Source: an uncultured Bryobacteraceae bacterium
GTDB taxonomy: Bacteria; Acidobacteriota; Terriglobia; Bryobacterales; Bryobacteraceae
DNA length: 64,000 bases
Direction: 5' to 3'
Assembly (NCBI GenBank): GCA_937920635.1
Contig: CAKZUE010000048.1
Location: forward strand, 1-64,000
Of this stretch, positions 4,662 to 11,513 are shown piece by piece. The notes under the pieces were generated by a model, which did not search any database, was not told where the DNA came from, and saw only the letters and a list, made by a program, of their open reading frames with translations. Within the stretch, counting starts at the first letter, position 1; each line of letters opens with the position of its first letter. The translations under genes and the position numbers were made by a program.

Positions 4662-5099
4662 TCATTTCGCGCGGGCGCCCTGAGTCCACGCGCAGACGGT
4701 CTGGATCTCGGCGCCCGTGAGTTTCGCATCCGGATGGAGCAGCAGGTAGCCTTTGATGGGCATGGAGCCGGTGCGGATCTCCTGGCAGACGTCCTTGAGC
4801 GACATCTCTTCGTTGAAGTCGTCGATGTTGAAGTGGCGGCGCCCGTCTTTCACATGGTCCGCTAGAAGCCACGATGCCGGCGCCACCTGGCTGTACCACG
4901 GCCAGCGGGTGCGGTGGGAGTGGCAATCGGCGCAGGCGCGCTCGAGGACGCGCTGCACATCGTCCGGAACCTCGTATTGGGCGGCCAGCGTGAGCTCGGG
5001 GTTCACGGGCGGATTGGAACGTTCGGGCCGGACGGTTTGCATGCCGGCGAAAACGATCAGGATGCCCAGAAACGAGTAGCGGACCCAGCGCCTGTTCAT
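4662..5099 (-). CDS. Membrane-anchored haem-binding domain protein
   Basis: 145 residues: an N-terminal membrane segment (~7-22) and then a small haem-c domain with CADCHSHRTRWPWYSQVAP, the signature of the haem_bd family often found beside cytochromes and oxidases. Further conserved parts are ASWLLADHVKDGRRH and a C-terminal MPIKGYLLLHPDAKLT. One CxxCH site at ~56-60. It should face the periplasm. It lies 39 bases downstream of the KASIII-like gene, so co-transcription with the acylation cassette is possible, but the function does not obviously fit; it may simply be a read-through neighbour. Confidence 0.85.
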   Translation of the reverse strand: MNRRWVRYSFLGILIVFAGMQTVRPERSNPPVNPELTLAAQYEVPDDVQRVLERACADCHSHRTRWPWYSQVAPASWLLADHVKDGRRHFNIDDFNEEMSLKDVCQEIRTGSMPIKGYLLLHPDAKLTGAEIQTVCAWTQGARAK

Positions 5100-5138: not shown

Positions 5139-6071
5139 TCAGACGCCGCGCGCCAGCAGCGCGCCCCAGTGGAAGCCCGCGCCGAAAGCGGCGAAGACCA
5201 CCGGCTCGCCGGGGTGGAACCCGTGCGCGCGGCTCCACTCGCAGGCGGCGATCAGCATGGACGCCGAGGAGGTGTTGCCGAAGCGGCGGATGTTGGAGAA
5301 GAAGCGCTCCTGGGCGACGCCAAGCGCGGAAGCGATCCGGTCGAGCAGGTTCTGGTTGGCCTGGTGGAGCAGGTAGGCGAGAACATCTCCGGGCGGCACG
5401 CCGTTTCTGTCGAGCACGGCGCGGATGGCGGCGGGAATCTTGCGCGATGCCTGGAGGATGACGCTGCGGCCGTTCATCTTCAGCGGCGCGCCGTTTTCCA
5501 GCATCAGGTCCTCGGCGTAGGTTCCGTCCGAGGCCAGCACCGAGTCGACGATCTCCGCCTGCCCCGCATCCGGCGTCACCAGGCACGCGCCCGCGCCGTC
5601 GCCGAACAGGATGGCGACTCCTTTCTCCCGCGGTTCGCGTTTGACGATGCGCGACATGATCTCGGCGCCGATGACGAGGATGGGGCCAAGCTGCGCCGTC
5701 AGGCGGGACGCCAGGCTGAGCGCGAACAGGGAGCCGGCGCTGGCCATGGGCACGTCCAGCGCGGGAACGCCTACCGCGCCGAGCAGGCGCGCCGCCGTGC
5801 AGGCCGGACCGGGGAAAGCACGCTCCGAGGTCCCGCTGGCGACGAAGATCATGCCGAGGTCTTTGGCCTCCATGCCCGCCCGTTGCAGGCAATCCGCGCC
5901 GGCGCGGGCGGCCAGGTCCGCCACGGTTTCGGTCTCCGCCGCGAACCGGCGTTCTTCGATGCCGGAGACGTTTCTGACCCACTCGGCGTCCGAGCCGACC
6001 CAGGCGCCGGCCTCCTCGCTTGTGACGATATGTTCCGGCAGCCAGCAGCCGAATTCTCTGAGAAATGCCAT
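5139..6071 (-). CDS. KASIII (FabH)-like protein with Ser in place of the catalytic Cys
   Basis: 310 residues, full length for the FabH/thiolase fold. The catalytic His (LLHQAN, His236) and Asn (GNTSSA, Asn266) are intact and the C-terminal FGAGFHWGALL is typical. The nucleophile position reads DVPMASAGSLFAL: Ser111 (AGC at 5739-5741) where FabH has Cys. Ser-type KASIII homologues such as DpsC of daunorubicin biosynthesis transfer starter acyl groups instead of condensing normally, so an acyltransferase or acyl-loading role is inferred. It lies 6 bases downstream of an acyl carrier protein gene and in one run with an MBOAT and two SGNH genes. Substrate not predictable from sequence. Confidence 0.85.
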   Translation of the reverse strand: MAFLREFGCWLPEHIVTSEEAGAWVGSDAEWVRNVSGIEERRFAAETETVADLAARAGADCLQRAGMEAKDLGMIFVASGTSERAFPGPACTAARLLGAVGVPALDVPMASAGSLFALSLASRLTAQLGPILVIGAEIMSRIVKREPREKGVAILFGDGAGACLVTPDAGQAEIVDSVLASDGTYAEDLMLENGAPLKMNGRSVILQASRKIPAAIRAVLDRNGVPPGDVLAYLLHQANQNLLDRIASALGVAQERFFSNIRRFGNTSSASMLIAACEWSRAHGFHPGEPVVFAAFGAGFHWGALLARGV

Positions 6072-6077
6072 AACCTT

Positions 6078-6311
6078 TCAGGCCCTTGAATCCAGATATT
6101 CCTCAATTCGCTCGATGGAATCGAATTTTCTCGGGTTCAGATCGGAATCCGGTATCTGAATTCCGAATTCCTGCTCCAGAGCGCTGACGAGATCGGGCAG
6201 CGCAAAGGAGTCGAGGATGCCGGATTCGAAAAGGGATTCGTCCGGAGCGGCGGCGACGTCTTTTTTCGTCACGGTCTTGAGGATTTCAATGAGTTTTGAC
6301 CGGCGGTCCAT
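6078..6311 (-). CDS. Acyl carrier protein, DltC-like
   Basis: 77 residues from the ATG at 6311, which has GGGAG 8 bases upstream; an ATG at 6317 and a GTG at 6338 are also in frame. The phosphopantetheine site is GILDSFAL with Ser35. Sequence around it (LFESGILDS, EFGIQIPDSDLNP) looks more like D-alanine carrier protein and secondary-metabolite carriers than housekeeping AcpP. It overlaps the 3' end of the SGNH gene by 26 bases and is followed after 6 bases by the KASIII-like gene, so the two are very likely translated from one message and work together. It would hold the acyl group as a thioester in the cytoplasm for the MBOAT. Confidence 0.88.
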   Translation of the reverse strand: MDRRSKLIEILKTVTKKDVAAAPDESLFESGILDSFALPDLVSALEQEFGIQIPDSDLNPRKFDSIERIEEYLDSRA

Positions 6312-7656
6312 TGCCATTTTCTCCCATGATTTTCTCACGGATGGTCACAAAAATGCCATACTGGCCCAGGATCAGATCGTAGAGCGCATCGCCTACCAGG
6401 CGGTAGCCGGCGGCGGTCAGATGGACGTAGTCGCCCTGCGCCAGCCCGGCACGGACCCATTGCTTCATCGAGCCCGGGCCGCCCATGGCGGCGCGAAGAT
6501 TCCAGAAGGCGCAGCGGTGCTCGAGCGCCGCTTTCCGCTGCGCTTCCAGAATCTGGTCCGTGCCCGCTGGGGCGACGGTGGAGCGCCGGGTGCGGATGTA
6601 CTGATCAGGCGCCCCGACGACGAGAATGCTGGCCACGGGCGCCGCCTCGCGCAGCAGGCGCAGCACGCCGTCGAGAGCCTGCTGGTAGCTTTCGAAGGTC
6701 CAGTCCATGCGGCGGGATTCATTGGTGCCGTAAGCGACGAGGATGAGGGCGGGGTTGCGCCGAGCGATGTGATCCTTGAGCAGAGCCGCGTCCTGCTTCA
6801 ACAGGAGATCGGCCTGCGCGCCGTTCAGACCGAGCGTCTCCCAGGTGATGCCGCTGCGGTGTTCCAGAACCCAGCCGAAAACGCGGACGGGCGCTTCGCT
6901 GAGCGTGCGGAGGGTGAGCGAATGCGGCCCCGCGGGCAGTTCCGCGCGGAAGTAGCCCGGTCCGAGGGGGCCATCGGTGGAGATTTCGCCAAGACCTGAT
7001 CCGTTGTCTTCCAAAGCAAAAGCGCCGCCGCCGGGCTGCCTCCAGTAGAAGAATTCGAGCACTTCGCCCTCGGCTTCGAGCGTCAGCGTTTCGCCCGCCC
7101 TGGCGGTAGTGAGACTGACGCCGGCGATGCCGTCGAAGCCGTCGCCGCCGCGGACGCCCCCAAGCGTCTGCCAGCCGCGGGACATGGACGATTTGACGTC
7201 GAGACGGCGGAAGCCCGCATACGGGCGGCCTGCCTGAACGAAGCCGGGGCCGCCGGAGCCGAAGCGCTGCTGGAAGCGCGCGCGCAACTGGCCGGGCCAG
7301 TCATCGGCGGCGGTGTGGGAATCGCCGAACTGGAGCACGCGCAGCGGCTGGCCGTTTTCGATGTGATTCTCCTGCCGGTACATCAGCTCGTACAGCGGCA
7401 CCATTGCGGCGGCGTTCTCGATGCCGGTTTCGGGAGCCGTCTTCACGCGCGATTCGACCGTTGCCGCGGCTTCGGCCCGGGCCTGAGGGGAAACCGGCGG
7501 CGGCTTGGGAACCGTGCGGCGCAGTTTGGCGGGCGCTTTGGCGGCAGTCTTCTTCGCGGTGGCGGCGGGCTGTCTGGGCGGCGGACTCTGCGGCAGCAGC
7601 GGGGCAACAGAAAAGGCCGCTGCCAGCAGAACCGCGGGCAGGAGCGTCTTCCTCAT
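6286..7656 (-). CDS. Exported SGNH-fold protein (GDSL/DltD/AlgX-like), copy 1
   Basis: 456 residues. Signal peptide (~1-22), then a long Pro/Ala/Lys-rich linker (~24-65), then the SGNH domain: block I FGDSHTA with Ser113, block III YGTNES with the Asn, and block V DYVHL with Asp409 and His412. A beta-rich insertion sits between blocks I and III (~160-260). These features fit a periplasmic O-acyl transferase or esterase. Its start codon directly abuts the stop of the second SGNH gene (TAAATG) and its 3' end overlaps the carrier-protein gene. By analogy with AlgX/AlgJ/DltD it would receive the acyl group exported by the MBOAT. Substrate polymer unknown. Confidence 0.85.
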   Translation of the reverse strand: MRKTLLPAVLLAAAFSVAPLLPQSPPPRQPAATAKKTAAKAPAKLRRTVPKPPPVSPQARAEAAATVESRVKTAPETGIENAAAMVPLYELMYRQENHIENGQPLRVLQFGDSHTAADDWPGQLRARFQQRFGSGGPGFVQAGRPYAGFRRLDVKSSMSRGWQTLGGVRGGDGFDGIAGVSLTTARAGETLTLEAEGEVLEFFYWRQPGGGAFALEDNGSGLGEISTDGPLGPGYFRAELPAGPHSLTLRTLSEAPVRVFGWVLEHRSGITWETLGLNGAQADLLLKQDAALLKDHIARRNPALILVAYGTNESRRMDWTFESYQQALDGVLRLLREAAPVASILVVGAPDQYIRTRRSTVAPAGTDQILEAQRKAALEHRCAFWNLRAAMGGPGSMKQWVRAGLAQGDYVHLTAAGYRLVGDALYDLILGQYGIFVTIREKIMGENGNGPPVKTH

Positions 7657-9045
7657 TTACGGCCTGACCGTCCCCGGCTGGCGGTCCACGGCGGCGGTTT
7701 GACGCAGCAGCCGCAGCTTGTAGGCGTTATAGCCGTCCATAAGGGCATTGTAGAGCAGCGTGCCCACGATGCGCCCTCCGGCGGGCAGCGGGTGGATGAA
7801 GTCGGCGCTGACAAGCCGGGGTTCGGCCGAGTACCACTTGCCCATGGTGCCGGGACCGCCCATGGCATCGAAGGTATTGAAGAAGGCGCACCCGTTCTCG
7901 GCGGCCAGCTTGGCCTGCACGGCCACCAGATGAGGGATGGAAGGCATGGTGCCGATGGTCCCGCCGGCCTCGCGGACGCCGCGGTCCATGGGGCTCATGA
8001 TGAGGATGGACGCTTCGGGCACGGCCGCGCGAATCCGGGTGATGATTTCGCGCACGTCGCGCGGGTAAGTGGTGTCGATGTAGTTGCGGTAGCCGCTTTC
8101 GTTGGTGCCGTAATTCACGATGACCAGGCTCGGCTTCGCCCGGCGCAACTGTTCGGCCCAATGGCGGCCGTTCATGTGCCAGGCGAGCACGCCGGCCCAG
8201 GTGCCGTTGAGGCCGATGCTGTCGTAGACGATGCCGGGGTTGGGCTTGAACAGTTCCACCTGGAACAGGCGCACCGGGCCGCGGGTGACGCGGAGATCGA
8301 TCTCCTGCGCCTCCGGCGGGATGTCAAAGGACTCCTGCGAGGCCGCGGGTTCAGACGCCGAAGTGTCGAGCACGCCCGCTTCGATGTCCCCCGCCAGAAC
8401 GCGCAGCTCTCCGCCTCCGGGCTGGGCCACAAAGGAGACCGCCAGCCGGGTGTGGCCCGGCCGCTTCAGGCGGATCCTGCTGAAGGCGCCGGTGTCGCCA
8501 GTGAAGCTGACGCCCCCCAGGCCATACCAGCCGTCCTTCTGTTTGCGCAGCGTGGCGGGATCGGCCCGCCAGCCGCCGGATTCCACATCGATGCCGCGGT
8601 GGTTGTACCAGGCCCAGGGTCTGGCGATCAGATAGGCGCCGTGGCCCGAGTCGCCGAAGCGCTCCTGGAGCAGGGCGCGGACGTCGGCGGTGATCAGGTC
8701 GGCCGTGACAGGGGAATCGCCGTAGTGCAGGATGCGCGTGACGGCGCCGGGCTCGCCGCGTTCCGTGCGCAGCAGGCTCGCGTAAAAGGCGTCCATGGCC
8801 CCGTGGGGGTCGGCGATCTTCGACGGATCCTGCCCGGGCTGAGGGGAGGCCGGGCGGAGGCGCGCCAGCTCCTCTTCCACCGGGCTTTCCTCTCGCATCC
8901 GGGGCTGGAAATCCAGCAGAGACGAAGCCGAGCGCCATTCGTAAACGCGCCAGTTGTGCCACTGCGGAATGAACTGCGGCAGAGTGATGAGCAGGCCGAA
9001 GCTGGCCAGGACGGCGAAGGGTTTCAGGGGCCAGGGCGGTTTCAT
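7657..9045 (-). CDS. Membrane-anchored SGNH-fold protein, copy 2
   Basis: 462 residues from the ATG at 9045; the upstream open frame overlaps the MBOAT gene and is not protein-like. One N-terminal membrane segment (~8-25) looks like an uncleaved anchor. The SGNH blocks are YGDSPVTAD (Ser111), YGTNES and DFIH (Asp415, His418). It is clearly a paralogue of the neighbouring 6286-7656 protein: same block spacing, same central beta insertion, same GTNES. The gene starts 7 bases after the MBOAT stop. The pair suggests one membrane-tethered partner for the MBOAT (DltD/AlgJ-like) and one more freely exported enzyme. Confidence 0.85.
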   Translation of the reverse strand: MKPPWPLKPFAVLASFGLLITLPQFIPQWHNWRVYEWRSASSLLDFQPRMREESPVEEELARLRPASPQPGQDPSKIADPHGAMDAFYASLLRTERGEPGAVTRILHYGDSPVTADLITADVRALLQERFGDSGHGAYLIARPWAWYNHRGIDVESGGWRADPATLRKQKDGWYGLGGVSFTGDTGAFSRIRLKRPGHTRLAVSFVAQPGGGELRVLAGDIEAGVLDTSASEPAASQESFDIPPEAQEIDLRVTRGPVRLFQVELFKPNPGIVYDSIGLNGTWAGVLAWHMNGRHWAEQLRRAKPSLVIVNYGTNESGYRNYIDTTYPRDVREIITRIRAAVPEASILIMSPMDRGVREAGGTIGTMPSIPHLVAVQAKLAAENGCAFFNTFDAMGGPGTMGKWYSAEPRLVSADFIHPLPAGGRIVGTLLYNALMDGYNAYKLRLLRQTAAVDRQPGTVRP

Positions 9046-9052
9046 GGCTTGC

Positions 9053-10459
9053 TCAGAACTGCGTGTACAGGAACGGCGCCGCGCCAGTGATGGCGACATA
9101 TTCGAGAGCCAGCACGAGCAGCGCCAGCGCCGCCGCCTGCGCGTAAAACGGCGCGCGGACATAGAGCGCCGCGCACCACTCGGCCCATCGCTTCGGCAGA
9201 TAGTGGGCCGTCACGGCGATGAGCAGCACGGCGGCGACAGGGATCGAGATATTGGCGAAACTGACCGTGAGCGAGGCGATCCTGCCGAGCACCTCCATGG
9301 CGTTTTCCAGCGACGAAGCGCGGAAGAAGATCCACGCGAAGATGACGAAATGCGCCGTCAGCAGGCGGCTTGCGAGCCGCGCGGGCCACGCGCCCGGAGG
9401 CGGGTTGCCGCGCGCCGAGCGGAAGCCGTGGTGGACGGCCAGCGCCAGGCCGTGCAGCGCGCCCCAGATGACGAACGTCCAGGCGGGGCCGTGCCACAGC
9501 CCGCCGAGCAGCATGGTCACGAAGAGATTGACATAGGTGGGCCACTTCCGCTTCGAGCGGAGGCCCGGCAGCGAGAAGTAGAGATAATCCCGCAGCCAGT
9601 TGGAAAGGCTGATGTGCCAGCGGCGCCAGAACTCGCTGATGTTGAGCGCCAGATAGGGCCGGTTGAAGTTCTCCGGCAGCCTGATGCCCAGCAGCAGCGC
9701 GCTTCCGATGGCGATGTCCGTGTAACCGGAGAAGTCGTAGTAGAGCTGCGCGGCGTAGGCGTAGACGCCGATCAGGGTTTCCATGCCGGTATACAGCCCC
9801 GGCGTGTCGAAGACGCGGTTGACGAGGTTCTCGGCCAGATAGTCGGCGATCAGGAATTTTTTCAGCAGCCCGAGACCGATGCGCCAGAAGGCGCGACCGC
9901 TGTCTTCCGCTGCGAGCGTCTTCTCCTTTTTCTCCAGTTGCGGCGCCAGCGCCAGCACGCGCGTGATGGGCCCGCTGAGAGTGGTGGGGAAGAAGGTGAC
10001 CGCGGCCATATGCGTGAGCAGGCTGCGCACGGGCTTGCCGTCGCGGCGGTACAGGTCGATGGTGTAGGTCATCGCCTGGAAGCAGTAGAAGGACAGGCCC
10101 AGCGGGAAGACCCAGTGCCATTCGGGCGCTTTGCCGCCCGTGGCCGACGCCCAGGTTCCGAGGAAGAAGGGCATGTACTTGAACGCCGCCAGCAGGCCCA
10201 GATTCAGGACGATGCTGGCTGTCACCAGCAGGCGCCGCAGCGGGCGGCTCTGCCAGGCGCCGAGGCCGCGGCCAATGAGATAGTCGAGGAACGCCGAGGC
10301 CGGGATCAGCGCCAGATAATGCAGATCCCATTTGGCGTAGAAGAACAGGTTGGCGAACAGAAGAAGCGCTACCGAGGCCAGGCGCCAGCGCGCCAGCGGC
10401 CAGTAGAGCAGGAAGACCGCGGCGAGAAATACGAAATAGAGAGAGCTTGAGAGAAGCAT
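9053..10459 (-). CDS. MBOAT-family O-acyltransferase (AlgI/DltB-like)
   Basis: 468 residues from the ATG at 10459; a GTG two codons upstream is also possible and neither has a strong ribosome site. Around ten membrane segments. Family motifs: FPLGLSFYCFQAMTY, TFFPTTLSGPITR, YDFSGYTDIAIG, RRWHISLSNWLRDY with His282 and LLGGLWHGPAWTFVIWG with the catalytic His323. AlgI and DltB pass acyl groups across the inner membrane onto alginate or teichoic acids. It heads a tight run with two SGNH genes, an acyl carrier protein and a KASIII-like gene, so the acyl donor is probably an acyl-carrier-protein thioester made by its neighbours. Confidence 0.93.
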   Translation of the reverse strand: MLLSSSLYFVFLAAVFLLYWPLARWRLASVALLLFANLFFYAKWDLHYLALIPASAFLDYLIGRGLGAWQSRPLRRLLVTASIVLNLGLLAAFKYMPFFLGTWASATGGKAPEWHWVFPLGLSFYCFQAMTYTIDLYRRDGKPVRSLLTHMAAVTFFPTTLSGPITRVLALAPQLEKKEKTLAAEDSGRAFWRIGLGLLKKFLIADYLAENLVNRVFDTPGLYTGMETLIGVYAYAAQLYYDFSGYTDIAIGSALLLGIRLPENFNRPYLALNISEFWRRWHISLSNWLRDYLYFSLPGLRSKRKWPTYVNLFVTMLLGGLWHGPAWTFVIWGALHGLALAVHHGFRSARGNPPPGAWPARLASRLLTAHFVIFAWIFFRASSLENAMEVLGRIASLTVSFANISIPVAAVLLIAVTAHYLPKRWAEWCAALYVRAPFYAQAAALALLVLALEYVAITGAAPFLYTQF

Positions 10460-10505
10460 GCGCACGCCCGCGGGCGTGTGTTTCCTATTCTATCCGGAGC
10501 GCAGA

Positions 10506-11513
10506 TCAGGGACGGTAGGTTTTCGCGAAATTATTGCGCTGATTGCGCACCGTGATCACCCCGCCGCGCGTGGCTTGCAGCTCGATGCCGAAGCCCTGGC
10601 ATTTCTCCTCGATATTGGCGATGCGCTCTTCGGCCACGTTGGCATCCTTGCCGCCCGCGAGCGAATAGTGGAGCTGCCAGAGATCTTGCAGTCCAGGCGA
10701 GGAAGAGACAATGCGCCACGCCGCCGGCGAGCCGCCCTTGCGGGCGCCGTTGTTCATGATGGCGACGCGCGGGCGCATCCCATGCACGATCTGCGGGCAG
10801 CCGCTCAGGTCGAGCCCGTGGTGCGTCGTCAGGTACAGATCCACGGGGCCGATGCGATGGTCCGGGCAGGCCAGATCGAGTTCCTTATTCCAGGTCAGGT
10901 CGCCGAGATCGGCGAAGCGGAAACGGCCAAAGGTGAGGACGAACCCGATGGAGCGGGCGTTTTCCGTGGGATCATCGGCCTTGCGTTCGGCTTCCGGACA
11001 CAGGGGGTTCTTCTGGCCGCCGCCCTTGACCGCTTTGGTCATCGTCTCGCCGCGGGCGGCGACGATCTCGATGCGGACATCCTTCAGGGGGAGCACGTCT
11101 CCCGGTTTGACGGTGAGCCGTTTCGCCCCGGTGGCGAGCACCTTGCGGTAGTTGTCTTCGAGCGCCCTGGCCTGCGGGGAGGTTTCCGTGTTGTCTCCGT
11201 GGTCGATGAAGGCGCCGATGGGGAATTTGGCCGCGAGTTCCGGCACGCCGCCCACGTGATCGAGATGATAGTGCGTCACCAGGAGCCAGTCGATGCGCTG
11301 GAGGCCGAGCTGCCTCGCCGCGGCGACGATGCGGTCCGAATCCCGCCCGTTGTTGCCGGGGAAGCCTGCATCCACCAGCAGCGACTCTCCGCGCGGCGTC
11401 AGGATCAGGGTCGCCTGGCCGCCCTCCGTGTCGACGAAAACCATCCTGAGGGGCTGCGCCAGAAGTCCGGAGGCAGCCAACAAGCAGAACAGGAAGGCGA
11501 GAACGCGCGGCAT
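10506..11513 (-). CDS. Secreted metallo-beta-lactamase-fold hydrolase
   Basis: 335 residues with a signal peptide (~1-19). The zinc-binding motif is HYHLDH (His81, His83, Asp85, His86), with the preceding strand FVDTEGGQATLI and a later TTHHGLD as further ligand motif. This resembles the ComEC/Rec2-type branch of the fold, which is used by exported nucleases and related hydrolases; no ComEC membrane part is present. Lies 46 bases upstream of the MBOAT gene on the same strand, so it may be the first gene of that operon, but a functional link is not evident. Substrate unknown. Confidence 0.85.
   Translation of the reverse strand: MPRVLAFLFCLLAASGLLAQPLRMVFVDTEGGQATLILTPRGESLLVDAGFPGNNGRDSDRIVAAARQLGLQRIDWLLVTHYHLDHVGGVPELAAKFPIGAFIDHGDNTETSPQARALEDNYRKVLATGAKRLTVKPGDVLPLKDVRIEIVAARGETMTKAVKGGGQKNPLCPEAERKADDPTENARSIGFVLTFGRFRFADLGDLTWNKELDLACPDHRIGPVDLYLTTHHGLDLSGCPQIVHGMRPRVAIMNNGARKGGSPAAWRIVSSSPGLQDLWQLHYSLAGGKDANVAEERIANIEEKCQGFGIELQATRGGVITVRNQRNNFAKTYRP

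Follow-up and report, generated by a model that had tools for sequence, protein, structure and literature searches.

A conserved Acidobacteriota gene cassette suggesting carrier-protein-fed O-acylation of the cell envelope

We analysed a window of 64,000 nucleotides from an uncultured Bryobacteraceae bacterium (GenBank assembly GCA_937920635.1, contig CAKZUE010000048.1, positions 1 to 64,000), whose minus strand carries at 5139-10465 a block of five genes coding for a membrane-bound O-acyltransferase (MBOAT), two SGNH proteins (SGNH1 and SGNH2), an acyl carrier protein (ACP) and a KASIII-fold protein with a serine at the position of the nucleophilic cysteine. This cassette is a conserved module of Acidobacteriota, its gene order recurring far beyond chance. 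Its core, as far as predicted folds can tell, is of the OAP (Pat/Ape) kind, accompanied by a DltC-like carrier and the Ser-type KASIII. We favour, with modest confidence, the view that the cassette carries out carrier-protein-fed O-acylation of the cell envelope, as an OAP-like cluster in which the supply of acyl-coenzyme A (acyl-CoA) would have been swapped for a private carrier and its loader. Acidobacteriota rank with the most common bacteria of soils, and little is known of the chemistry of their envelope.

Results

Five packed genes form a conserved module

The cassette consists of the following genes.

9053..10465, minus strand: MBOAT acyltransferase of the PatA/AlgI/DltB superfamily (PF03062, 107.7 bits; DltB is the best solved relative, E 1.2e-29)
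7657..9045, minus strand: SGNH1, acyltransferase or esterase with an Ape1-like predicted fold (PF13472; profile match to Ape1, 4.7e-29)
6286..7656, minus strand: SGNH2, probably exported, with an Ape1-like predicted fold (PF13472; profile match to Ape1, 5.9e-54)
6078..6317 (or from 6311), minus strand: dedicated ACP, DltC-like (PF00550, 43.2 bits)
5139..6071, minus strand: KASIII-fold protein, Ser111 replacing the nucleophilic Cys (PF08541 and PF08545; comparison with FabH 1hn9)

All five open reading frames (ORFs) were confirmed, and every Pfam domain scored above its cut-off (MBOAT 107.7 bits, Lipase_GDSL_2 59 and 54.7, PP-binding 43.2, ACP_syn_III_C 88.3). The tight packing on the minus strand claimed by the initial annotation also stands: three of the four junctions have gaps of 7, 0 and 6 bases, and at the other the SGNH2 and ACP genes overlap by 32 bases, or by 26 with an ACP start at 6311. 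The MBOAT start codon is GTG, an ATG at 10459 being an equally good alternative. The contig holding the window is 77.5 kb long and belongs to an assembly of 4.15 Mb (98.4% complete), searches of which returned a single MBOAT and a single PF08541 protein, both in the cassette. Promoter and terminator scans gave nothing usable above chance.

Relatives were collected with a KASIII scan based on the patterns AILFGDGA and GNTS[SA]AS[MVL]LI, neither of which includes the Ser position. The closest named ones are Bryobacterales (Acidobacteriota), such as a Paludibaculum metagenome-assembled genome (MAG) at 76% identity. The best 80 of 550 relatives by KASIII similarity were examined as loci (numbered with an L, and genomes with a G, below), which with the window gives 81 sequences; several of the 80 locus stretches stop at contig ends. 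The initial annotation had proposed looking for the five-gene order across Acidobacteriota, and the same-strand succession MBOAT, SGNH1, SGNH2, ACP, KASIII is indeed kept in 45 of the 80 loci. A cultured bearer of the cassette is Granulicella rosea DSM 18704 (L192). Partial orders account for most of the others: SGNH2, ACP and KASIII in 12, SGNH1 through KASIII in 4, ACP and KASIII alone in 12, KASIII alone in 3, and four further forms at one locus each. The ACP gene lies upstream of the KASIII gene in 76 of 80 loci, at most 100 bases away in 73.

We searched the whole genomes of 23 of the 35 loci lacking the full order for an MBOAT. A match was found in 21 of the 23 at E <= 1e-15 and in 19 at E <= 1e-120, and in 18 of these 19 genomes the stretch beside the MBOAT holds SGNH1. 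Among the 23, no MBOAT was found in the genomes of L153 and L190, the latter having SGNH1 at a contig end. Ten loci (L142, L143, L148, L150, L152, L154, L175, L176, L183 and L188) have 7 kb or more of MBOAT-free sequence upstream of the ACP-KASIII pair, and all ten genomes carry an MBOAT orthologue elsewhere. In G187 and G289 the ACP-KASIII and MBOAT-SGNH1-SGNH2 halves are on separate contigs. That the two halves are co-inherited without being physically linked is our strongest evidence for a joint function.

Co-occurrence was further assessed in an even draw of 297 Acidobacteriota genomes, with the nucleophile read for the 30 top-ranking matches, those taken on as loci. A cassette-type KASIII is present in 13 of them (10 of the Ser type and 3 of a related Cys type) and an MBOAT at E <= 1e-100 in 12, of which 11 also have a cassette-type KASIII (8 Ser, 3 Cys; Fisher p 2.8e-17, uncorrected for kinship between genomes). 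The homologues, whose failure to co-occur would have told against the cassette in the initial annotation, are thus found together. The exceptions are G193, where the MBOAT sits on a 3.5 kb contig and only an ordinary Cys KASIII was found, and G136 and G100, which have weaker MBOATs.

A KASIII family with serine for cysteine and altered docking positions

In an alignment with FabH 1hn9, which we take to be the E. coli enzyme, Cys112 corresponds to Ser111 of the cassette KASIII, while His236 and Asn266 are kept. We compared 81 Ser-type with 47 canonical KASIIIs, all from the phylum: Ser, His and Asn are each present in 81/81 of the cassette clade, and the nucleophile is Cys in 47/47 canonical proteins. 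The serine read at this site from the window alone is therefore confirmed, and it is a family trait. The positions of FabH that presumably dock the fatty-acid ACP are changed as well. Arg36 and Arg249 each occur in 0/81 Ser-type versus 46/47 canonical proteins; at Lys214 the Ser type has no Lys and 5 Arg in 81, the canonical set 43 Lys and 3 Arg in 47.

In a tree built by a quick method and rooted at its midpoint, a branch with SH-aLRT 99 separates the Ser-type proteins from all others. Three Cys-type KASIIIs adjoin the group, and their genomes hold the same MBOAT-SGNH genes (L012, L016 and L028, from G063, G291 and G075; the Cys stands in the odd contexts ACCN and ACAA). Because these sisters share the changed docking positions, the loss of fatty-acid ACP docking seems to predate, or to be separate from, the Cys-to-Ser change. 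Among general family models, PF08541 and PF08545 score above cut-off, NF006829 just below it (244.1 against 249), and the closest solved sequences to the window KASIII are named as ordinary KASIII.

We asked whether this protein could be the housekeeping FabH of the organism, with the MBOAT genes as chance neighbours. It is the sole PF08541 protein found in the genome, and G187 is alike at E <= 1e-10. In 7 of 9 family members, however, there is another, much higher-scoring PF08541 protein (Cys was read in L098, L104 and L110), and the present genome has, on another contig, an AcpP-like ORF and, after it, a FabF-like one (names by inspection). Together with the lost docking residues these facts led us to reject a FabH role as the principal explanation; the recurrence of the five-gene order also speaks against chance neighbourhood, and we regard this explanation as extremely improbable. 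A gene adjoining fabH in G289 had no match in this genome, which has no bearing on the question.

The KASIII fold is known to serve in acyl transfer: excerpts of one source (PMC9573744) describe ChlB3 as a KSIII-fold protein that loads an ACP, give ChlB3 and the acyltransferase CerJ a Cys-His-Asp triad, and present DpsC as a KSIII with a Ser-His-His triad, grouped with condensing enzymes. This grouping of DpsC suits another proposal, namely that KASIII, still condensing slowly through Ser, produces with the ACP an unusual acyl group (3-oxo-acyl, 3-hydroxy-acyl or branched) for the MBOAT. The fold itself with its His and Asn and the dedicated ACP agree with it as well, but the residues docking the ACP of fatty-acid synthesis are lost, and a ketoreductase-like gene is not common nearby (by inspection one SDR-like cluster, in 3/80 loci, among the 30 clusters listed). 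We judge condensation of this kind to be very unlikely.

A dedicated DltC-like carrier and no DltA found

The cassette ACP has its phosphopantetheine site at Ser37, in a DSF motif kept in 77/77 sequences. Its best NCBIfam match is DltC, at 51.9 bits and below the cut-off of 68; among solved structures, D-alanyl carriers come closest to it. No DltA is present in the cassette. Four AMP-binding genes were found in the assembly, all on other contigs; the top scores of their products are to acetate or fatty-acid CoA ligases, and DltA is not among the best 25 families for any of the four. A conserved cassette with its own carrier and without DltA, as first proposed, therefore agrees with what the assembly holds.

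An MBOAT with its own acyl-Tyr motif and a distinct cytoplasmic loop

The MBOAT has His325 in WHGPAW, catalytic by analogy, and ends in FLYTQF, which includes Tyr467. The motif FxYxxF is found in 44/44 readable MBOATs of full cassettes, the 45th cassette having no readable MBOAT frame. Excerpts of PMC12148441 state that in PatA the Tyr of this motif carries the acyl group, and that in Dlt the motif is on the separate protein DltX.

Excerpts of PMC11035591 place the docking of DltC on the HC helix of DltB (Met302, Val305, Ile306, Met309 and Lys312) and on Arg317. The stretch of the window MBOAT that aligns with this region is shorter; a Lys and an Arg match Lys312 and Arg317. In the same region, a loop motif, LGG[NS], is present in 18/18 MBOATs without a neighbouring ACP and absent from 42/42 readable cassette MBOATs and 19/19 unlinked orthologues. 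The comparison was conceived after the first sequences had been seen and is descriptive. The 18 MBOATs were hand-picked (8 paralogues in genomes with an ACP-KASIII pair and 10 plasmid records), and the cassette count is 42 of 44 as the truncated loops of L124 and L159 are unreadable. Outside the counts stand L232, L045 and L046 (G146 and G008), L070, L135, L199, L201 and the Cys-type MBOATs. Among these, L199 and L201 are without GGN and near an ACP-KASIII pair, L046 has GGN in a genome where a cassette KASIII was not found, and the loop of G075, from a Cys-type cassette, is intermediate (GGLR).

We read the loop difference as a probable change of the donor site, and guess that GGN binds CoA. 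As a sequence mark, the loop may tell carrier-fed MBOATs from CoA-fed ones, which opens the choice of donor to testing by mutation.

Two Ape1-like SGNH proteins

AlphaFold models were made from the cassette alignments (SGNH2, 29 rows, mean pLDDT 86.5; SGNH1, 33 rows, 86.2). Both are closest to the peptidoglycan O-acetylesterase Ape1 (4k3u): each match has Z 41.5, spanning 341 residues (27% identity) for SGNH2 and 344 for SGNH1, whereas the next fold matches other than Ape1 reach Z 19.2 and 18.2, respectively. The transferase PatB (DUF459) matches the SGNH2 model at Z 15.4 and is not among the best 50 matches for SGNH1; DltD and AlgX are not among the fold matches listed for either model, an absence that excludes neither. 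Thus, by predicted fold and by profile, both proteins are Ape1-like, a point that goes beyond the initial annotation. The residues Ser111, Asn315, Asp415 and His418 are invariant in SGNH1 (alignments of 36 and 33 sequences), as are Ser113, Asn312, Asp409 and His412 in SGNH2 (alignment of 29). SGNH1 begins with a predicted helix that would suit a membrane anchor, and the N-terminus of SGNH2 is hydrophobic and, by inspection, resembles a signal peptide.

Because the two SGNHs share the predicted fold of Ape1, the N-acetylmuramic acid (MurNAc) of peptidoglycan is the most likely acceptor. The same carrier-fed route could instead serve another periplasmic or exported glycan (O-antigen, exopolysaccharide or flagellar glycan), since the Ape1 fold alone does not determine the polymer. 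ACP-KASIII pairs without an MBOAT adjoin glycosyltransferase or nucleotide-sugar genes at L143, L150, L154 and L176 (and at L152, by cluster only), and fliD-like genes are found close to three pairs (recognised by Pfam at L150, and by cluster at L152 and L181). However, no neighbour family is present in more than 11/80 loci, the two recognised nucleotide-sugar clusters (named partly by inspection) occur in 5/80 each, and the matches of both SGNHs to Ape1 stand far above those to the other solved structures listed. We consider a different glycan somewhat unlikely.

Proposed route and its weaknesses

We infer the loading by KASIII, the acyl group and the acceptor, and the route that we favour, carrier-fed envelope O-acylation, would run as follows. 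The Ser-type KASIII would take a short acyl group, acetyl being a first guess, from acyl-CoA as a Ser ester and then charge the phosphopantetheine of the dedicated ACP with it. The acyl-ACP would dock at the cytoplasmic face of the MBOAT, which, judging from PatA and from DltB with DltX, would carry the group across to Tyr467, on the periplasmic side, in its C-terminal FLYTQF motif. The putatively membrane-anchored SGNH1 would then take the group on Ser111 and transfer it to a glycan hydroxyl, most likely on peptidoglycan MurNAc. SGNH2 may take the group off again as an esterase, or act as a further transferase.

Several observations weigh against this route. Firstly, the residues of FabH that we take to contact CoA give a mixed picture in the Ser-type proteins: Trp32 is kept in 77/81 and Arg151 is Arg or Lys in 58/81, while Arg36 is absent, as noted above. 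In the two of nine family genomes where no other PF08541 protein was found (this one and G187, both nearly complete), the KASIII may have a housekeeping role. Secondly, L153 has a Ser-KASIII (L153:10001-10927) and neither ACP nor MBOAT was found with it, the sole orphan among those searched. Thirdly, Met302, Val305, Ile306 and Met309 of DltB are not kept in the window MBOAT, and with its docking residues mostly lost the carrier would not be bound in exactly the Dlt way. The loop rule also has contrary cases: L135 and L232 have GANR loops and an adjacent ACP, G100 has GGNR 3 kb from its ACP-KASIII pair, G146 lacks GGN, yet a cassette KASIII was not found there, and L070 is likewise contrary. 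Which of the two SGNHs is the transferase is a guess. Lastly, where ChlB3 and CerJ have a Cys-His-Asp triad, the His-Asn pair of condensing or decarboxylating enzymes is invariant here, a pattern no less suited to a decarboxylase than to an acyltransferase.

In such a scheme FabD would load malonyl on the ACP, the Ser-KASIII would act as a malonyl-ACP decarboxylase, and acetyl-ACP made in place would feed the MBOAT. The His and Asn of KASIII stabilise the enolate during decarboxylation, and KSQ domains, in which Cys is replaced by Gln, decarboxylate in the loading modules of polyketide synthesis; in the cassette clade His and Asn persist in every protein while the condensation Cys is gone from all. 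The KSQ-type decarboxylases known to us carry Gln and not Ser, however, and Ser is still a possible nucleophile. Trp32 and, in 68/81, Phe87 are kept, as in a CoA-using acetyl enzyme. We regard the decarboxylase as unlikely but as a serious alternative. Either way, by a loader or by a decarboxylase, acyl-ACP would be made on the spot.

In a broader and more tentative proposal, to which we give a little less than even credence, MBOAT-SGNH machines would have another means of supply, one that does without DltA: a KASIII that has become an acyltransferase (or a decarboxylase) would select the acyl group and charge a private carrier, and the group on peptidoglycan or another envelope glycan of Acidobacteriota would be set by fatty-acid metabolism and could even be one new to bacterial cell walls.

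Neighbouring genes and unusual loci

Two further genes flank the cassette.

10506..11513, minus strand: metallo-beta-lactamase-fold protein (PF00753, 61.4 bits)
4662-5099, minus strand: haem-binding-domain protein, just downstream of KASIII (Pfam scan)

The first lies 40 bases upstream of the MBOAT on the same strand and is an occasional sixth neighbour: homologues occur in 5/80 loci, directly before the MBOAT at L115, L119 and L172 (three maps inspected). At L135 (L135:9757-13596), a minor variant, the genes directly after the ACP-KASIII pair code for an MBOAT and an SGNH protein of the ALGX family, apparently a different acylation pair with the same loader. The ACP-KASIII pairs of L150 and L152 are also near nucleotide-sugar dehydratase or epimerase genes, and the orphan KASIII of L153 adjoins a pyridoxal phosphate-dependent decarboxylase and a PMT_2-family protein. 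Two records carry questionable names. L181 is titled as a Bordetella parapertussis MAG, but its ACP-KASIII is the same as that of G187, a member of the window's own family, and it is probably mislabelled; the label of L160 (titled Verrucomicrobia) is doubtful because its cassette groups with those of Acidobacteriaceae. A search of plasmids returned 168 records with KASIII homologues (below 60% identity) and 134 with MBOAT homologues; in ten plasmid MBOAT records, no ACP or KASIII match was present within flanks of 3-8 kb.

Comparison with known systems

The KASIII shares its domains with FabH and differs in that the Cys-His-Asn triad is replaced by Ser-His-Asn in the whole clade. With ChlB3, CerJ and DpsC, as excerpts of PMC9573744 present them, it shares a KASIII fold, which here too would serve acyl transfer, the presumed loading of an ACP (ChlB3) and a Ser in place of Cys (DpsC); the triads there are Cys-His-Asp or Ser-His-His, and here Asn266 is invariant. 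The cassette KASIIIs with Ser in place of Cys make up a naturally occurring family whose partner protein can be guessed.

Alginate and cellulose acetylation (AlgIJXF, WssFGHI) resemble the cassette in combining an MBOAT with SGNH proteins, but the cassette also has a carrier and a KASIII. A Pfam scan of 17 window genes gave no AlgF or AlgX-type match, the only ALGX protein being that of L135. With Dlt (DltABCD, DltX) the cassette shares a small DltC-like carrier that apparently feeds an MBOAT, and an SGNH partner. It differs in having no DltA-like ligase that we could find, an extra KASIII and Ape1-like SGNHs; in its acyl-Tyr motif, which is the C-terminus of the MBOAT itself and not a separate DltX; and in its ACP, which scores under the DltC cut-off, with the DltC-contact residues of DltB mostly not kept. 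The label 'Dlt/Alg-like' given in the initial annotation is not borne out, since the Ape1-like SGNHs, the gene content and the MBOAT-fused acyl-Tyr motif are of the Pat/Ape kind.

Excerpts of PMC1199599 define an OAP cluster as an MBOAT-family O-acyltransferase beside at least one Ape esterase, and describe an ape1b-ape1c-pat order with Bacteroides among its bearers. The cassette has this arrangement, its MBOAT adjoining at least one Ape-family SGNH, and shares with patA/patB/ape1 systems a single MBOAT with an FxYxxF tail and two SGNHs, here of Ape1-like predicted fold. Records of Bacteroides, Parabacteroides and Sphingomonas contain MBOAT plus two-SGNH cores that are recognisable homologues; ACP or KASIII matches were absent from the stretch read around these three-gene cores. 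Unlike OAP clusters, the cassette adds a dedicated ACP and a Ser-KASIII, and its MBOAT is without the LGG[NS] loop motif. In the literature searched, which did not extend to subscription papers and preprints, we found no description of a carrier-fed MBOAT-SGNH-KASIII system. According to excerpts of PMC12148441, the donor of PatA is acetyl-CoA, and MBOAT/SGNH pathways other than Dlt lack a carrier protein. The cassette departs from this acyl-CoA-dependent, carrier-free PatA type in that a carrier gene accompanies its KASIII at nearly all loci, and a carrier-fed MBOAT-SGNH system outside Dlt would contradict that recent general statement, at least as the excerpts word it.

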